Assembly: GCF_006459125.1 (NCBI RefSeq)
Contig: NZ_CP041070.1
Coordinates: 806,001 to 870,000 of the forward strand
DNA length: 64,000 nt
Direction of reading: 5' to 3'
From: Halarcobacter anaerophilus
Lineage (GTDB): Bacteria > Campylobacterota > Campylobacteria > Campylobacterales > Arcobacteraceae
Positions 53,046 to 61,319 of this stretch are shown in pieces. Each line of letters begins with the position of its first letter. Positions within the stretch are counted from its first letter, which is position 1. The translations under genes were made by a program, and so were the position numbers. The notes under the pieces were generated by a model. The model did no database searches, was not told the DNA's origin, and saw only the letters and a program-made list of their open reading frames with translations.

Positions 53046-53699
53046 TTGCCAAGAGTAAAAAAAGCTACTAAAGAGGATATTCAAGTAATAAAAGAGGCAT
53101 TTTTAGAAAATTTCAATGATGCTGTTACGGAGTTAAATTATAGAAATGATTATGAGTTGTTAATTGCAATTATTTTATCTGCTCAATGTACGGATAAAAG
53201 AGTAAATATTATAACACCTGCACTGTTTGAAAAATATCCTTCTGCTTTTGACTTAGCCGATGCTTCTTTGGAAGATGTAAAGCAGTTACTTAAAAGCTGC
53301 TCATTTTTCAATAATAAATCAAAAAATATTATAAAAATGGCACAAAGCGTAGTTTCGGAATATGAAGGAAAAATTCCTCACAGCCACAAAGAGCTTATTA
53401 AACTTGCAGGAGTAGGTAATAAAACGGCAAATGTTTTTATGATAGAAAGCGAAGGTGCAAATGTAATGGCTGTGGATACTCACGTTTTTAGAGTCTCACA
53501 CAGACTTGGACTTAGTGATAAAAAAACAGTAGAGCAGACAGAAGCTGAATTGGTAAAAAAATTAAAAGATGATTTACATATTTTTCATCAGGCAATGGTT
53601 CTTTTTGGAAGATATACCTGTAAAGCTTTAAATCCCGAATGTGATAAATGTTTGTTCCCCCATGTATGTAAAACAAAAAAATCTTTTAAACCTCAGTAG
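53046..53699 (+). CDS. nth: Endonuclease III
   Basis: This 217-residue base-excision-repair enzyme has a helix-hairpin-helix motif LAGVGNKTANV with the catalytic Lys, the catalytic Asp in VDTHVFRVS, and the four-Cys [4Fe-4S] loop CKALNPECDKCLFPHVC near the C-terminus. The start is TTG with AAAGGA eight bases upstream. Its end overlaps the converging kinase gene by 14 bases. Confidence 0.96.
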   Translation: MPRVKKATKEDIQVIKEAFLENFNDAVTELNYRNDYELLIAIILSAQCTDKRVNIITPALFEKYPSAFDLADASLEDVKQLLKSCSFFNNKSKNIIKMAQSVVSEYEGKIPHSHKELIKLAGVGNKTANVFMIESEGANVMAVDTHVFRVSHRLGLSDKKTVEQTEAELVKKLKDDLHIFHQAMVLFGRYTCKALNPECDKCLFPHVCKTKKSFKPQ

Positions 53700-56094
53700 A
53701 ATCAAAATTGATTGTTATTGAGGTAAGTAGTCCCTCTTTTGTATTTTCTAATTTGATTGTTCCTTTTATATAATCTTCAATAATCACTTTTGTCATATAT
53801 AATCCTAAGCCTGTTCCGTTTTTATTAAGTTTTGTAGAAAAGTAGGGATCAAATACTTTGTCAAATATCTCTTTTTTTATTCCTCCTGCATTATCTTCAA
53901 TATTAAGAAAAAATTGATTTTTTGTTTTTTGGGTAGTTATTTTTATCCATTTGTCTTTTTTTGAACATTGTTCAAAGGCATCTTTTGAATTATTCAAAAT
54001 ATTCAAAACTGCCTGACCTAGTTCATTTTTATAACCGTAAACATAAGTCGTGTTTTTACAATCAATTTCCAAATTAACATTAATATTTTTTATGGGTTTT
54101 ATTAAAGAGACGCTTTTTTTTATAATATCGCATAATTCAAACTCCTCTTTTTTTCTTCTTGGCTGGAAAAAATCTTTAAAATCGTCAATAGTCTGAGACA
54201 TATATTTTATCTGTTTTAGTACATCTGTATTAAATTTTTCCATTACTTCATTATTTAGTTTATCTTTTTTGTATTTCAATACGACAGTTTGAATCATAGT
54301 AGAAACATTATTCAAAGGCTGTCTCCATTGATGTGCAATCATTGAAATCATTTCACCCATTTGGGCAAGTCTTGATTGATGAAACATTATTGCCTGTTGA
54401 GCTTTGTTTTTATAAACTTGGTTTTCTACTTTTTGTTCAAGAGTTTTATTTAACTCTTCCAACTCTTTTTCTATTTTTTTTCTTCTTATTATCTCTTTTT
54501 TTAGTTTTTGATTCCAATAAAGCACAATAAGAAGTATTAAAACAGAGATAAAAATACTTTTCCAAAACAGACTGTAATCTATAATCGTTTCCTGTTTTAT
54601 ACTTATCCATTTTTTATATATTTTATTCTCTTCTTCTTGGGTAATTGAATCAAGAGCTTTTTGCAGTATTGGTATAAACTCTTTTAAATCCTTATTTACT
54701 CCAAAAGCTAAATTTAAACGAAAAGGTGTTTCCCCTGAAATCTTCAGATTTGTTATTCCGTTTTTTTGGCTTAAATAATCAACCCGTGCAATATTTCCTA
54801 TATATGCGTCAACTTTTTCCATTGATACGGCTTTTAATGCCAAAAGTGAATTATCATAAACTTTTAAATTAAGATAAGGGAATCTTGCTTTGATAAGTTC
54901 ATAAGAAAAATAGTTTTTTTCAATAGCAATTGTTTTATTTTTTAAACCTTTCATTCCGTCTATAAAAGCAGTTTTATTTGAAGTTATTATCATCATAGGA
55001 TGAGAAATATAAGGTTTAGTAAAATAGAAACTTTCTTTTGTTTTTTTTGTGGGAACAACTGCTGTTAACAAATCCAGCTTTTTATCTTCTGCCATTTTAA
55101 GTATTTTATTCCAAGGTTTATTTGGTGATTGAATAAAAGTTATACCCAGGCGTTTTTCAATCAGCTTTATATAATCAGCAGAAATACCTTCATAAATATT
55201 TTTATCGTTAATATCTTCAAAAGGGAAAAAAGCTCTGCTTGAAGCTAATTTTATTGTTTTATGATTTTTAAGCCATTTTTTTTCATCTTTATTAAGTACA
55301 AGTTGATTTTTCTCTTTTACATTAGGCAGAATATTCCATTTAGAGGCAATAAGATTTATTTTTTCTTCGGTTAAGTTATTAATTGCTTTATCAAGAATTG
55401 ATTTTAAAGGTTTATCTTGGGGATTAATTCCCATATAAATTTTATAATCCATTTTAGAGATAAAAGCTATAGTTAAATCTGCAATTAAATATTTATTTAT
55501 CAAATATTGGTAAGTGATATATCCGACCATTGCATCGGCTTCATTTGAGATAACTTTTTCCATCTGTTTTAAAGGTGAGTTTACTACGATTATTTGCGTA
55601 TTTTCTATTTTTTCTAAATACTCTTTAATTGCCCTTTGTTCTTTTAAAATTACGATTTTTTTATTTTTAAGGTCTTGGACATCTTTTATCTGCGCTTTTT
55701 TTTCTCTTTTTGTATATATTACAAAAGGAGTGGACATATAAGGTTTAGTGTAGAGATACTCTTTTTGATTTTGTTTTATATTAAAAATTGCACAGTGTCC
55801 GTAAAAACCTTTGCTTTTCGCTTTTTTATGATAATCCGTAATTTTTACGGGACTTAACTCTATTTTTTGACCGATCTCTTGGCTTAAATAGCTAAAAATA
55901 TCGGGAAAAATTCCAATTAACTTGCCGTTTTTATCAAGCATACTTAAAGGAGGTTGATTTTTAGGCACGGGAAATTTTATATGGGGATTATCTTTTAACC
56001 ACTGTTTCTCTTCTTTTGTTAAATCTATTGTTTGACAAAAGAGGTTTAAATTTAAAACTATTACTAAAAAAAAAGATTTAAACCAAAAGCTCAA
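53686..56094 (-). CDS. Sensor histidine kinase with two solute-binding domains
   Basis: This 802-residue kinase has a signal peptide (residues 1-20), then two tandem family 3 solute-binding domains (about 25-255 and 270-500), which are expected in the periplasm, a membrane helix near 513-530, and a cytoplasmic coiled coil. The H-box is HQWRQPLN with His588, and the ATPase domain carries NILNNSKDA and GTGLGLYMTK. Double binding-domain sensors probably detect amino acids or similar ligands. It is the last gene of a four-gene signalling operon. Confidence 0.92.
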   Translation of the reverse strand: MSFWFKSFFLVIVLNLNLFCQTIDLTKEEKQWLKDNPHIKFPVPKNQPPLSMLDKNGKLIGIFPDIFSYLSQEIGQKIELSPVKITDYHKKAKSKGFYGHCAIFNIKQNQKEYLYTKPYMSTPFVIYTKREKKAQIKDVQDLKNKKIVILKEQRAIKEYLEKIENTQIIVVNSPLKQMEKVISNEADAMVGYITYQYLINKYLIADLTIAFISKMDYKIYMGINPQDKPLKSILDKAINNLTEEKINLIASKWNILPNVKEKNQLVLNKDEKKWLKNHKTIKLASSRAFFPFEDINDKNIYEGISADYIKLIEKRLGITFIQSPNKPWNKILKMAEDKKLDLLTAVVPTKKTKESFYFTKPYISHPMMIITSNKTAFIDGMKGLKNKTIAIEKNYFSYELIKARFPYLNLKVYDNSLLALKAVSMEKVDAYIGNIARVDYLSQKNGITNLKISGETPFRLNLAFGVNKDLKEFIPILQKALDSITQEEENKIYKKWISIKQETIIDYSLFWKSIFISVLILLIVLYWNQKLKKEIIRRKKIEKELEELNKTLEQKVENQVYKNKAQQAIMFHQSRLAQMGEMISMIAHQWRQPLNNVSTMIQTVVLKYKKDKLNNEVMEKFNTDVLKQIKYMSQTIDDFKDFFQPRRKKEEFELCDIIKKSVSLIKPIKNINVNLEIDCKNTTYVYGYKNELGQAVLNILNNSKDAFEQCSKKDKWIKITTQKTKNQFFLNIEDNAGGIKKEIFDKVFDPYFSTKLNKNGTGLGLYMTKVIIEDYIKGTIKLENTKEGLLTSITINFDSTEV

Positions 56095-56112: not shown

Positions 56113-58089
56113 TTATAACTCTTTTGGTTTCCCAAAATAGTAACCTTGTGAATAATCAACACCTATTTCATTTAAAATATTGAAAATTGCTTCATTTTCA
56201 ACATACTCTGCAACAGTTTTTATTTTTTGTCGTTTTGCAAACAGAACAACTGTCTCTACAATATTTTTGCTATATAAATCATTTTCTATATTTTTGATTA
56301 ATGAACCGTCGATTTTTAAAATATCAGGTTCAAACTTTAAAAGTCTTTCAAAGTTTGAATAGCCTGAACCGAAATCATCGATTGCTATTTTTACCCCTTT
56401 TGATTTTACCTCTTTTATAAAATCTTCAATCAGACTAAAATCTTTGATATTTTCATCTTCAAGAAGTTCAAATACAATTCTGGCTGCATCTTTGATATTT
56501 TCATCAAGCAGATTAAATATTTTTTCTCTAATCTGCTCTTTTTCAATATCTATTGCAGAGATATTTATTGAGAGTTCGGTTTTGATTTTTTGAAGAATTT
56601 TAAAAGAGTTTTCTAAAACTCTTTCCGTAATTTTATTGTAATAATTAGCCTTCTTTGAGATATCTATAAATGAAAAAGGTGAAATTATATCTCCTCTTTC
56701 ATCAATTAATCTAACAAGAGATTCATACTTCTCAACCTCTTTTGTTTTATTATTGATTATAGGTTGGAAGTATGAGACGATATTGTAGTTTTCAAGTGCT
56801 ATTTTTACTGTTCTTATCATCTCTAAATTGTGTTTGTTTTCTTCATTTAATGCTATTGAAAAGTCATTTGAGAAATTTAATTTTGTTTTTTTCTTCACTG
56901 CTTTATCTAATCCTGCTTTTGCATCTTCATAAAGCATAAATTTCCCTATAGTATAACTTACGGTGATATTTAAATCAAACTCCATTTCATCTAGTTTCAG
57001 TGTAGAGTTTTTTACTCTTTGAACAAACTCATTTAAATACTCTTGTATATTTAAGTTAGTTTTATCAAAACTCTTATAATTGGTTAAAAGTCCGAATCTT
57101 CCGTCACCCAAAGAGTAAATATTTTCAAACCTGTAACTTTTTGGAAGGTAATATGCAAGATTAAAAGAGAAATCTTTTTCTATTTGATCAATAGTAATAG
57201 AGTTATAAAACTTATCAAGCATTTCAAACTCGTCAATTTGTACTAAAACCAATATTGAGAGGTCATTTTGTTTTATTTTATCTAGTATATATTTTTTGTC
57301 GTCTAAAATAGCATTTAAACTATCTCTTACTGCAATATACTCGACTATCTCTCCTTCAAAGTTTTTAATAGGAGTTATCATTGTTTTTACATAATAGGAT
57401 TTCCCGTCTTTTGCTCTGTTTTTTATCACTCCTTCCCAAGTCTGTTTTTTATCTTTTATTTTGTGCCACATCTCTTCATAAAGCTCTTTTGGATTCTCCG
57501 GATGCCTCATTATATTGTGTTTTTTACCTATAATCTCATCTTCTTTAAAACCGCAGATTTTGCAGAAACTGTCATTTACGTAAGTGATAATTCCTTCTGC
57601 ATCCGTTTTTGAAATAATATTACTCTTTTCTACTAAATTAAGATATTGTTTAAGATAGTATTGGTAACTTTTGGAATCATATTCGAGTTTAAACTTTTCC
57701 GTAACTTTTTCAACTTCATTTAACAGCTGATTGTATTCAATGGGTTTTAAAACATAACCGTCGATATTTAATTTAATAGCTTCAAGAAGCATTTTATTTT
57801 CATTATTTTGAGAAAGTATAATAATATAAGTGTCTTTATTTAAATTTTTTATCTCTTCTATTAATTCCAAACCGTTTAATTTTGGCATTAAAATATCTGT
57901 AATAACTAAGTTTATTTCATTTTCTTTAAACTTTTTTAATGCCTCTTTACCGTCTTTTGCCGTAATTATTGAGCTAAATATCTCTTTTAAGAATTCAAGA
58001 GTATTTTCTCTTGATACTTCATCATCTTCTACATATAATACGTTTATTTTTTTTGAGTATTCTACGATTTTTTTTATTCTATCTATCAC
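56113..58089 (-). CDS. REC-PAS-GGDEF-EAL signalling protein
   Basis: The 658-residue protein begins with a receiver domain (phosphoacceptor Asp65 in VITDILMPKLNG), followed by PAS (about 150-260), a degenerate GGDEF domain in which GGDEF is replaced by LGDGRF, and an EAL domain from about 435 (Glu456 in YESLVRL, DDFGSGYS, AEYVEN, QGYYFGKP). The EAL motif is ESL but key metal residues remain, so c-di-GMP hydrolysis is plausible. The GGDEF domain is probably regulatory. Its start overlaps the upstream kinase gene by 11 bases. Confidence 0.92.
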   Translation of the reverse strand: MIDRIKKIVEYSKKINVLYVEDDEVSRENTLEFLKEIFSSIITAKDGKEALKKFKENEINLVITDILMPKLNGLELIEEIKNLNKDTYIIILSQNNENKMLLEAIKLNIDGYVLKPIEYNQLLNEVEKVTEKFKLEYDSKSYQYYLKQYLNLVEKSNIISKTDAEGIITYVNDSFCKICGFKEDEIIGKKHNIMRHPENPKELYEEMWHKIKDKKQTWEGVIKNRAKDGKSYYVKTMITPIKNFEGEIVEYIAVRDSLNAILDDKKYILDKIKQNDLSILVLVQIDEFEMLDKFYNSITIDQIEKDFSFNLAYYLPKSYRFENIYSLGDGRFGLLTNYKSFDKTNLNIQEYLNEFVQRVKNSTLKLDEMEFDLNITVSYTIGKFMLYEDAKAGLDKAVKKKTKLNFSNDFSIALNEENKHNLEMIRTVKIALENYNIVSYFQPIINNKTKEVEKYESLVRLIDERGDIISPFSFIDISKKANYYNKITERVLENSFKILQKIKTELSINISAIDIEKEQIREKIFNLLDENIKDAARIVFELLEDENIKDFSLIEDFIKEVKSKGVKIAIDDFGSGYSNFERLLKFEPDILKIDGSLIKNIENDLYSKNIVETVVLFAKRQKIKTVAEYVENEAIFNILNEIGVDYSQGYYFGKPKEL

Positions 58090-59683
58090 TAAAAAGCCTT
58101 ATTTCAAATTTTGCACCGACTTTTGTATTTGAAGGAACAATTACTCCGTTTAGGTGTTTTTCTATAATTGTTTTTGCCATAAAAAGTCCTATTCCTGTAC
58201 CTGATTTAATATCTTTTGTAGAAAAATACGGAGTAAAGATTTTATCAATGATATCTTCTTGGATACCGCCGCCGTTATCTTCAAATATTATTATACATTT
58301 ATTATTATCTATTTTCATAGTGATTTTTATGTACGCATTGTCAATCTTTTTTTCAGACAAAACATCTTTTGAATTTTGAAAAAGTATAAGAAAAGATTGT
58401 AAAAGTTCATTTGGATAACCTTTAATTATAAAGTCTTGAAAATTTGATTTTTCTATTCTTATATGTTTTTTTATATATGAAAATTCTATAAGTTCGATTG
58501 TCTTTTCTAATTCATCTTTTATATTAAAATCTATTTTTTCTTTTTTTATATTATAAAAGTTTCTAAAATCATCAATTGTGTGGGACATATATCTTATTTG
58601 TTTCATTGTATCGTCTTTGAATTTTTCCATTAAACCATCATTTAGTTTTTCATTTAGATATTTTATATTTACTGTTTGTACCATTGCAGCTATACTATTT
58701 AAAGGTTGTCTCCATTGATGGGCAATCACGCTTATCATTTCACCCATTACAGATTGACGTGATTGCAGAAAAATTGTCTCTTCCATCTTTTTTATTTTAT
58801 CATTTCTGATTTTAAGTATAAAAAACAGAAGTAGAAGTAAAAGTAAAAGTATAATTAGACAAACCGTAAAAAAACTCTCTTTGGGATAACTCTCCCAAAT
58901 TGGAACAGCTCTATTTATATAAATTGTATCTTCGGGGTTTAAATTCTCTTCTATTTTATACTTCTTTAGCATTTCATAATCGATAAAAGGATTATAAATA
59001 GGTTTGATTTTTTTAAAATATCCGTTTTTTATATAAAACAATAAATTTTGCAAACTATTTTGAGCGATTACACTTCCGTCTCTCATATATCCTCCTATAG
59101 TTCCGCTTCCTAAATAAGAACTCCAGAAACTATATATAGGAACAGGTGAATCTTTTGCAATATCTTCTAAAAAATCTTTTGGTATAAAGTTTTTGCCTGT
59201 TTTATCTTTTAAATTTACAGTATAAAAAACGGCGCTGTTTTTAGGCAGTTTTGATATTTTTTGTTTTAATTTATTTAAAGTAAAATCTTGAAGAATCGTT
59301 GTATTTAAGTTTGAATTTTCTAATTGTTTTAATAAGCTTTTTTCTATATTTAAAGCTATCATATTTTGAGTTTTTATCAAATAGATATTTTTTAATTTAG
59401 GATTATGTTTTTTTGCCAATTCTATGGATTTTTTTGCCAAATCATTATCAAAACCGTTATAAACAATAATATTCTTTTTTCTTTTTATATATGTATTTGA
59501 TATATAAATTTTGGGAATATTGGAATAAAGAGTCTCTGAAAAGTTTTCAAAGATAACTGAAGCAAAAGAGGATTCAATTATTATTCCGTCAAATTCTAGA
59601 TTTTTATATTTGTTTTTTAGATACTCTTCCCAAATTTTAGAATTCATTTGATCTTTTAAACGCAGATAATCAATACTTTCCAA
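58079..59683 (-). CDS. Sensor histidine kinase with ABC-substrate-like sensor, N-terminus split off
   Basis: This 534-residue open frame begins at TTG. It contains an extracytoplasmic ABC_sub_bind-like sensor region (YNGFDNDLAKKSIELAK; about residues 1-250), a membrane helix near 274-294, an HQWRQPLN H-box with His322, and an ATPase domain (EDNGGGIQE, GTGIGLFMAK). The true start is almost certainly ATG 59863, in frame and overlapping the upstream stop as ATGA. From there a signal peptide is followed by TAA at codon 21. Without a signal peptide the sensor could not reach the periplasm, so this may be a broken gene or a sequence error. Confidence 0.85.
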   Translation of the reverse strand: MESIDYLRLKDQMNSKIWEEYLKNKYKNLEFDGIIIESSFASVIFENFSETLYSNIPKIYISNTYIKRKKNIIVYNGFDNDLAKKSIELAKKHNPKLKNIYLIKTQNMIALNIEKSLLKQLENSNLNTTILQDFTLNKLKQKISKLPKNSAVFYTVNLKDKTGKNFIPKDFLEDIAKDSPVPIYSFWSSYLGSGTIGGYMRDGSVIAQNSLQNLLFYIKNGYFKKIKPIYNPFIDYEMLKKYKIEENLNPEDTIYINRAVPIWESYPKESFFTVCLIILLLLLLLLFFILKIRNDKIKKMEETIFLQSRQSVMGEMISVIAHQWRQPLNSIAAMVQTVNIKYLNEKLNDGLMEKFKDDTMKQIRYMSHTIDDFRNFYNIKKEKIDFNIKDELEKTIELIEFSYIKKHIRIEKSNFQDFIIKGYPNELLQSFLILFQNSKDVLSEKKIDNAYIKITMKIDNNKCIIIFEDNGGGIQEDIIDKIFTPYFSTKDIKSGTGIGLFMAKTIIEKHLNGVIVPSNTKVGAKFEIRLFSDR

Positions 59684-59800
59684 AAAAAGTTCTACACTCT
59701 GTTTTGTACTGTTTTTGAAGTTGTTTATTCCTTTTAAAAACTGATTTGTCCAAGGTAATGTTTCATGAAAACTTTGAAAAACAAGTATTTTATAAACTTT

Positions 59801-59863
59801 TTAATCTGCTTTAAGAAGAAGAGAGAAAAGAATAAGAGTTATAAATAAAGCTTTTATTTTCAT
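59801..59863 (-). pseudogene. Signal-peptide fragment of the split kinase gene, ending in an in-frame TAA
   Basis: From ATG 59863 the frame encodes MKIKALFITLILFSLLLKAD, an ideal signal peptide, and then TAA at 59803-59801. Continuing in the same frame, 39 more sense codons with a binding-protein-like sequence (KVYKILVFQSFHETLPW) lead into the open frame at 59683. So one base change would restore a 594-residue kinase. Confidence 0.75.
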
Positions 59864-60561
59864 CTGATATTTTTCTCTTCTTCTAAAGGATTACTTATTT
59901 TTATAAGCTTTTCTACCTCAGGAAGTTTTACGTTTTTTAAATCTAAATCATTAAGTTCTTTTAATACTTTTGCAAGTTTTTTCACCTCTTGGGATATTTT
60001 ATCTATATCCTTTATCTCATCCTCTTTTGCTTTGAAGAGATTCATCTCCTTTTTTATTATAAAACTTGAAGAGAGAAAGAGAATATGAGCCAAAGATTGT
60101 CTCCAGTGATGGCTTATTTCATGTATTAATTTAAGAACAAGAGATACTTTTTCTCTCTCTTGCAAGTTTAAATTGATCTTTTTTAATTCAAGTTTTTGAA
60201 GGTTTTTATCTAATATAGCTATTAATTCATCTTTTGTTGCAGGTTTTGATAAAAAAGAGTTGATGCCTATATTTATCGCTTTTTTATAATCATCAATATT
60301 TTTAGAACCGCTAAATAAAATTATAAGTTGATTTTTATCTAGCTCTTTTATTTTTTCGCTTATTTCAAGAATGTTTTTATCGGATAATTTTGTTTCGGAA
60401 ATAACTATATCTTGATGAAATTTTGTAAAACTTTCTATAGCTTCATCTTTAGTTTTTGCAAAATATAAACTTTTTACTCTCTTTTTAAGAGCATCAATTA
60501 AAAATTCTTTACTTTGGTTATCTTCTTCAATACACAAAACGGTAGAGTCATTCAGCAACAT
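59860..60561 (-). CDS. Receiver-like protein with Glu phosphoacceptor site and orphan HxWRQ domain
   Basis: This 233-residue protein has a receiver fold in which the phosphoacceptor Asp is replaced by Glu56 (VISETKL). The acidic pair (IEED) and the Lys of FLSKP remain. The second half has SHHWRQSLAHIL near residue 151, like the HQWRQPLN H-box of the neighbouring kinases, but no ATPase domain follows. The frame could extend to ATG 60612 but only ATG 60561 has a weak GGA site. It is the first gene of the operon. Its Glu may mimic phosphorylation; a scaffold or partner role for the kinases is possible. Confidence 0.78.
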   Translation of the reverse strand: MLLNDSTVLCIEEDNQSKEFLIDALKKRVKSLYFAKTKDEAIESFTKFHQDIVISETKLSDKNILEISEKIKELDKNQLIILFSGSKNIDDYKKAINIGINSFLSKPATKDELIAILDKNLQKLELKKINLNLQEREKVSLVLKLIHEISHHWRQSLAHILFLSSSFIIKKEMNLFKAKEDEIKDIDKISQEVKKLAKVLKELNDLDLKNVKLPEVEKLIKISNPLEEEKNIR

Positions 60562-60634
60562 ATTTATTTTCCGATTTAAATAATTAAATAAATTTTTAGA
60601 ATTGTATAACATAAATCTAAGTGATATTTATATA

Positions 60635-60665: not shown

Positions 60666-61319
60666 ATGATTAAAAACAGAGTACTTTTAATAGAAGATGA
60701 TGAAGATGTAATTGTATGGATAAAAGAGTATTTGGAGGAGTTTGGTTTTGAAGTTTCTGCTCTAACGACAGTAACCGATGCCATATCAAATATTAGCGTA
60801 AATTCTTACAATATTATTTTACTTGATATAAATCTTCCCGATTTCTACGGATATGAAGTATTAAAACATATCCAATCCAATAAAAACGATATTCCCGTAA
60901 TTGTTATAAGTGCCTATTCAGATAGAAAAACAAAACTTCATGCTTTTAAATTAGGTGCAAGTGATTATATGACAAAACCTATAGATTTGGAAGAGTTAGA
61001 AGCCAGAATTAGAGTTCATACAAAAAGTAACTCTCCTGATTTTCAAAATAAACTGTTTTTTGTAAGAGATAACACAATATTTTTTCAAGATAAAGCCTTG
61101 AGTTTGACGAAAACGGAATTTGAACTTTTAAGTAAATTAATAGAAAATAAAAATATTTTATTGGAAAGAGAGTTTTTGTGTGAAGCTTTGTCTTCTATTA
61201 GTTCAAACAGGTCTTTGGATTATCATATTAGAAATATTAGAAAAAAGATAGGAGATGAGGGCTCTAATCCGAAATATCTTTTAACAGAGTACGGTTTGGG
61301 ATATAAGTTAATTTATTAG
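60666..61319 (+). CDS. OmpR/PhoB family response regulator
   Basis: This 217-residue transcription factor has a receiver domain (acidic IEDDED, phosphoacceptor Asp54 in LLDINLPDFYG, Lys in MTKPID) and a C-terminal winged-helix DNA-binding domain (LTKTEFELLSKLI, RSLDYHIRNIRKKIGD, TEYGLGYKLIY). It is divergent from the kinase operon and is the natural output regulator for it. The repeated 22-base motif directly upstream is a candidate binding site. Confidence 0.94.
   Translation: MIKNRVLLIEDDEDVIVWIKEYLEEFGFEVSALTTVTDAISNISVNSYNIILLDINLPDFYGYEVLKHIQSNKNDIPVIVISAYSDRKTKLHAFKLGASDYMTKPIDLEELEARIRVHTKSNSPDFQNKLFFVRDNTIFFQDKALSLTKTEFELLSKLIENKNILLEREFLCEALSSISSNRSLDYHIRNIRKKIGDEGSNPKYLLTEYGLGYKLIY

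Follow-up and report, generated by a model that had tools for sequence, protein, structure and literature searches.

An in-frame stop codon beside the signal peptide of a sensor kinase gene in Halarcobacter anaerophilus, and its probable reading as an early-stage pseudogene

How should a histidine kinase gene be read when one stop codon separates its signal peptide from an otherwise complete sensor and kinase? The question arises from a locus in the window that we analyzed, a 64,000-nucleotide stretch of Halarcobacter anaerophilus DNA (contig NZ_CP041070.1, 806,001 to 870,000), within which positions are counted from its first letter. A literature search found no report of this kinase gene.

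A kinase frame interrupted at codon 21

Translating the minus strand from 59863 to 58079 gave MKIKALFITLILFSLLLKAD*KVYKILVFQSFHETLPW..., with one internal stop only, which confirmed what had been claimed from the letters alone (hereafter the sequence-only reading): a signal peptide starting at ATG 59863 and then TAA at codon 21, so that no continuous frame joins the signal peptide to the kinase. The start codon and the TGA of the upstream gene (59860-60612) do overlap as ATGA, as had also been noted. Past the TAA, 573 open codons follow in the kinase frame and end at TAG 58081-58079. The 39 sensible codons said to follow the stop correspond exactly to codons 22–60, which contain no usual start codon; the first one downstream of the TAA is TTG 59683 (codon 61), which is also the choice of a mechanical ORF caller. 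Codon-usage scores favored the kinase frame on both sides of the stop (0.27 versus −0.51 and −0.06 in the other two frames for codons 1–20; 0.09 versus −0.16 and −0.17 for codons 22–60), and in searches with the sensor as query the alignments to relatives began at residue 4 past the stop. Together, codon usage and homology across the stop argue that the open frame around the TAA is more than a product of chance.

The remaining frame has the features of a histidine kinase whose sensor needs export, as the sequence-only reading had proposed. HATPase_c (PF02518) matched above its cut-off (E 9.5e-13), with the N, G1 and G2 boxes present, and HisKA (PF00512) scored 25.7 bits, just below its cut-off of 26.9, at an H box that retains its histidine. 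For the sensor, the Pfam family ABC_sub_bind (PF04392) gave 17.8 bits (E 0.0021), under the cut-off of 25.9, and the same family matched a related kinase of another genome (L026 in G089) with 48.5 bits (E 9.6e-13). A sequence search of solved structures found no relative of the sensor. An AlphaFold2 model built from 22 sequences reached a mean pLDDT of 87.4 and a pTM of 0.84, and the best solved structures matched by Foldseek were all of the substrate-binding type: 3lkv, 3lft (with L-Trp) and 6hnj (CD0873). On this modeled fold the sensor is predicted to be a periplasmic type I binding domain, which would therefore require export.

Table 1. Features of the interrupted kinase gene and its surroundings (window positions).
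Feature	Position	Strand	Evidence or remark
Second HWRQ-type histidine kinase, intact, with two SBP_bac_3 sensor domains	53686..56094	-	same gene run
Partner receiver-PAS-EAL response regulator, intact	56113..58089	-	11-base overlap with the kinase end
Kinase core	58082..58800	-	H box IAHQWRQPLN, N box FQNSKD, G1 FEDNGGGI, G2 GTGIGL all present
Predicted sensor domain, ABC_sub_bind / type I periplasmic binding fold, beyond ordinary translation	58861..59800	-	Pfam, AlphaFold model, Foldseek
Codons 22–60, open, missing if translation restarts at TTG 59683	59683..59800	-	homologous to relatives
In-frame TAA, codon 21, at or just past the likely signal-peptidase site	59801..59803	-	sense codon in the closest orthologue
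Signal peptide, ATG and codons 1–20 (MKIKALFITLILFSLLLKAD)	59804..59863	-	relatives have a hydrophobic signal peptide at the equivalent place
Upstream gene, receiver domain (Glu where phospho-Asp is expected) and H-box helical tail, no ATPase domain	59860..60612	-	
Divergent OmpR-type response regulator	60666..61319	+	61% homologue belongs to the G075 module

The stop codon among relatives

The comparison with close relatives that the sequence-only reading had proposed as a check was run on 43 relatives and then on ~103 distinct ones. In ~97 of the ~103 the frame is open through the signal peptide, and in these a hydrophobic signal peptide joins the sensor, except for three long proteins that have a longer N-terminal part instead. 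The visible exceptions are the closest orthologue described below, a kinase of genome G047 and three more decayed copies (L160, L161 and L169); L168 is truncated by the end of a contig. A family-wide programmed stop was rejected because so many relatives are open. The closest orthologue (L073:6540-8219 plus an upstream part) comes from another genus of the same family (genome G075); its sequence here is MKLFISIFIFYSALFAQEKALNILIFHSFNESYPW, in which a sense codon takes the place of the stop. Given that codon and the open frames elsewhere, the stop at codon 21 is, as far as these alignments indicate, a private derived change among the genomes searched.

The G075 orthologue is 46% identical to the window gene and is accompanied by a receiver-PAS-EAL regulator and an OmpR-type regulator, each 61% identical to its counterpart. 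Unlike the window gene, it is frameshifted close to codon 48, where an A7 run lies, and its G1 box has degenerated to IENNGEFI (FEDNGGGI in the window). Identity is 43% over codons 22–49 and 46% over the rest of the protein. Because the stretch past the stop is about as conserved as the remainder, it was coding until recently, and the codons between the stop and TTG 59683 must have encoded protein almost throughout the period since the two lineages separated. A search of the other 15 species of the genus yielded no homologue of the sensor with more than 31% identity, and a scan of a collection of genome contigs brought up only a distant, deltaproteobacterial kinase.

More distant proteins share parts of this design. 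Kinases with an ABC_sub_bind (PF04392) sensor are common in the family, and one of them (L026 in G089, 730 amino acids) has the same build of signal peptide, ABC_sub_bind-like sensor, transmembrane helix and kinase core; its type of sensor shares W17, D44, P221 and G236-G237 with that of the window. In L026, however, a PAS domain separates the sensor from the kinase core, whereas the window gene has no PAS and has the stop. The G047 kinase (L019:1495-3360) is interrupted in a similar way, by a TAA that stands at codon 37 just past its signal peptide, with the kinase frame open thereafter, and it adjoins an intact response-regulator gene whose product ends in a GGDEF-like part. It is, however, only ~34% identical to the window kinase, is broken at another site and belongs to another family within the order; genome G161 has a related kinase of this type that is intact (L158). 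ABC substrate-binding proteins of the TrpX and CD0873 type (3lft and 6hnj) share the fold of the sensor model, with Foldseek E values of 1.9e-9 and 9.3e-9, but are free transporter proteins with 12–14% identity to the sensor.

Loss, record error or residual expression

Our preferred reading, to which we give a probability of about 0.68, is that the gene has become a pseudogene, still at an early stage, and that the kinase it encoded was accessory and dispensable. The sequence-only reading had listed a recently lost sensor among several options, and with the stop private among the genomes searched this option accounts best for the data. Translation would start at 59863, coupled to that of the upstream gene, and a single nonsense substitution at codon 21 would end it right past the signal peptide, leaving a 20-residue leader peptide as the only product and presumably neither an exported sensor nor a useful kinase. 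The independent break in the G075 orthologue, next to an intact partner, fits a dispensable kinase. Relative to G075, dN was 0.46 for the kinase, 0.27 for the receiver-PAS-EAL regulator and 0.29 for the OmpR-type regulator, making the kinase the fastest to change; within it, identity falls from 47% in the sensor to 40% in the ATPase part. Kinase pN was lower than pS, which we counted against a pseudogene and which suggests purifying selection on the kinase for most of the divergence.

The state of the frame bears on the age of the lesion. Across codons 22–594, 5.6% of single changes would create stops, such that 0.03 neutral substitutions per site would be expected to leave 2.9 further stops; none was seen (P ~0.056, counting stops only), which would bound neutral change since the lesion at about 0.03 per site. 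With 573 remaining codons free of a further lesion, a lesion that is real should be young; more generally, such a count suggests that the lesion is recent, the record wrong at this base or the frame still under selection. The kinase motifs are all intact and nothing else is broken, as would equally be expected of a functional gene or of a one-base error in the record.

That error, in sequencing or assembly, is the main rival of the pseudogene; on this view codon 21 of the actual chromosome is a sense codon and the kinase is normal. The TAA is the sole lesion in an otherwise intact gene and the relatives are open at its position; moreover, our own rough estimate, which depends on our assumptions, puts one nonsense-creating error per 64 kb at Q50 at ~0.03, not much rarer than one nonsense pseudogene per 64 kb as judged from the five pseudogenes in the 2.3 Mb of A. 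butzleri RM4018, a genome that also has 37 sensor kinases (PMC2147049). We nonetheless consider an error unlikely, as the assembly is a single contig and 99.99% complete, the lesion is of the substitution type, unlike the indels that homopolymer errors usually leave, inspection of the window's ORF list by eye showed no second gene that was obviously split, and the orthologue of another genome has a break of its own, as expected of a dispensable gene.

Sensor kinases are needed in only few copies, so that low-level read-through of the TAA, or a restart downstream of it, might still yield enough kinase from a core and a post-stop frame that are entirely intact. Against such residual expression, which we regard as improbable, TAA is the usual stop in the window (11 of the 14 genes counted), and the TTG at codon 61 has no Shine-Dalgarno sequence evident by eye. 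In the sensor model, counted from the stop, strand 1 spans residues 3–9, helix 1 residues 16–32 and strand 2 residues 36–42; a product begun at TTG 59683 would enter this fold within strand 2, with no signal peptide, strand 1 or helix 1 and with most of strand 2 missing, so that the resulting half-sensor could probably neither fold normally nor carry a signal peptide. The rescue of sensing by a restart, which the sequence-only reading had allowed for, is unlikely for this reason. Read-through by a suppressor tRNA, or reassignment of the stop, was rejected: an Rfam search placed 47 tRNAs in the genome, anticodons were read for 41 (the other six were copies of the Ala/Ile pair with equal scores), and no ochre suppressor with a UUA anticodon was found among the 47. 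Phase variation, the other suggestion made from the letters, would have a reversible change at the site switch the gene on and off, and nothing speaks for it except the otherwise unbroken frame. We give it hardly any credence: the longest run near the stop is A5, with no simple repeat beyond it, a one-base slip ahead of the stop would leave the kinase frame, the nearby inverted repeats are weak and AT-rich with no strong pair flanking the stop, and no poly-G/C tracts were reported in A. butzleri RM4018 (PMC2147049). A slippage or inversion switch was thus rejected from the local repeats.

Three short PAS-less kinases, taken to be of the ABC_sub_bind type, carry early lesions (codon 21 in the window, near codon 48 in G075 and codon 37 in G047), each with intact regulators. 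Repeated silencing of such kinases of the order within the first 50 codons might reflect selection for loss of the input, or frames still read at a low level; we consider this very unlikely. A higher frequency of breakage among short PAS-less kinases was considered and set aside, since the numbers are small and the association is confounded by the fact that a broken frame also looks short. Most likely, then, a dispensable sensor has recently been lost in an ordinary way, or possibly a single base is in error, and no new kind of switch is involved.

Neighboring genes and the regulatory setting

The minus-strand gene run reads, in order, the receiver-like protein, the interrupted kinase, the receiver-PAS-EAL regulator and the second HWRQ kinase (Table 1). 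In G075 the module comprises the kinase (L073:6540-8320), the receiver-PAS-EAL regulator and the OmpR-type regulator, with both regulators intact, and a second, short receiver copy (138 amino acids) follows it. The receiver-PAS-EAL gene of the window has its own AAGG ahead of a GTG start, and its closest homologues in the genus (66%, 56% and 53%) stand without this kinase. The early stop in the kinase gene may lower expression of this downstream gene through polarity. If the kinase gene is a pseudogene as we favor, its loss would be tolerated because the kinase gave the regulator, which is of the c-di-GMP phosphodiesterase type, no more than an accessory input, and because in sister species the regulator presumably functions in the absence of this kinase. 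The EAL regulator may take its input from other kinases or act unphosphorylated, and the second kinase of the run could plausibly feed it.

The upstream gene has features of its own. In the receiver domain of its product, Glu (ISETKLSDKN) occupies the position of the phospho-accepting Asp, and the helical tail behind it carries an H box, ISHHWRQSL; relatives in other genera (L076 and L078, 31–37% identity) keep the tail but have Asp. The product is possibly a pseudo-receiver combined with a phosphotransfer-type protein. Around the kinase start, an 18-nucleotide inverted repeat (59811-59828 and 59870-59887, 89% complementary) pairs a purine-rich stretch ahead of ATG 59863 with signal-peptide codons; the hairpin predicted for the RNA has −20.3 kcal/mol and a z of −2.05, with 6 of 200 shuffles equally good. 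Such a hairpin could mask the start codon as long as no translation of the upstream gene takes place.

For annotation, the locus matters because pipelines may place the start at TTG 59683, and the truncated kinase so obtained would be the wrong gene model. Were the sequence confirmed and a product found, the gene would serve well as a natural example of a sensor kinase made by reading through a stop. As a probable pseudogene, it would offer a small, clear example of the loss of an accessory two-component input while the c-di-GMP output protein is kept.
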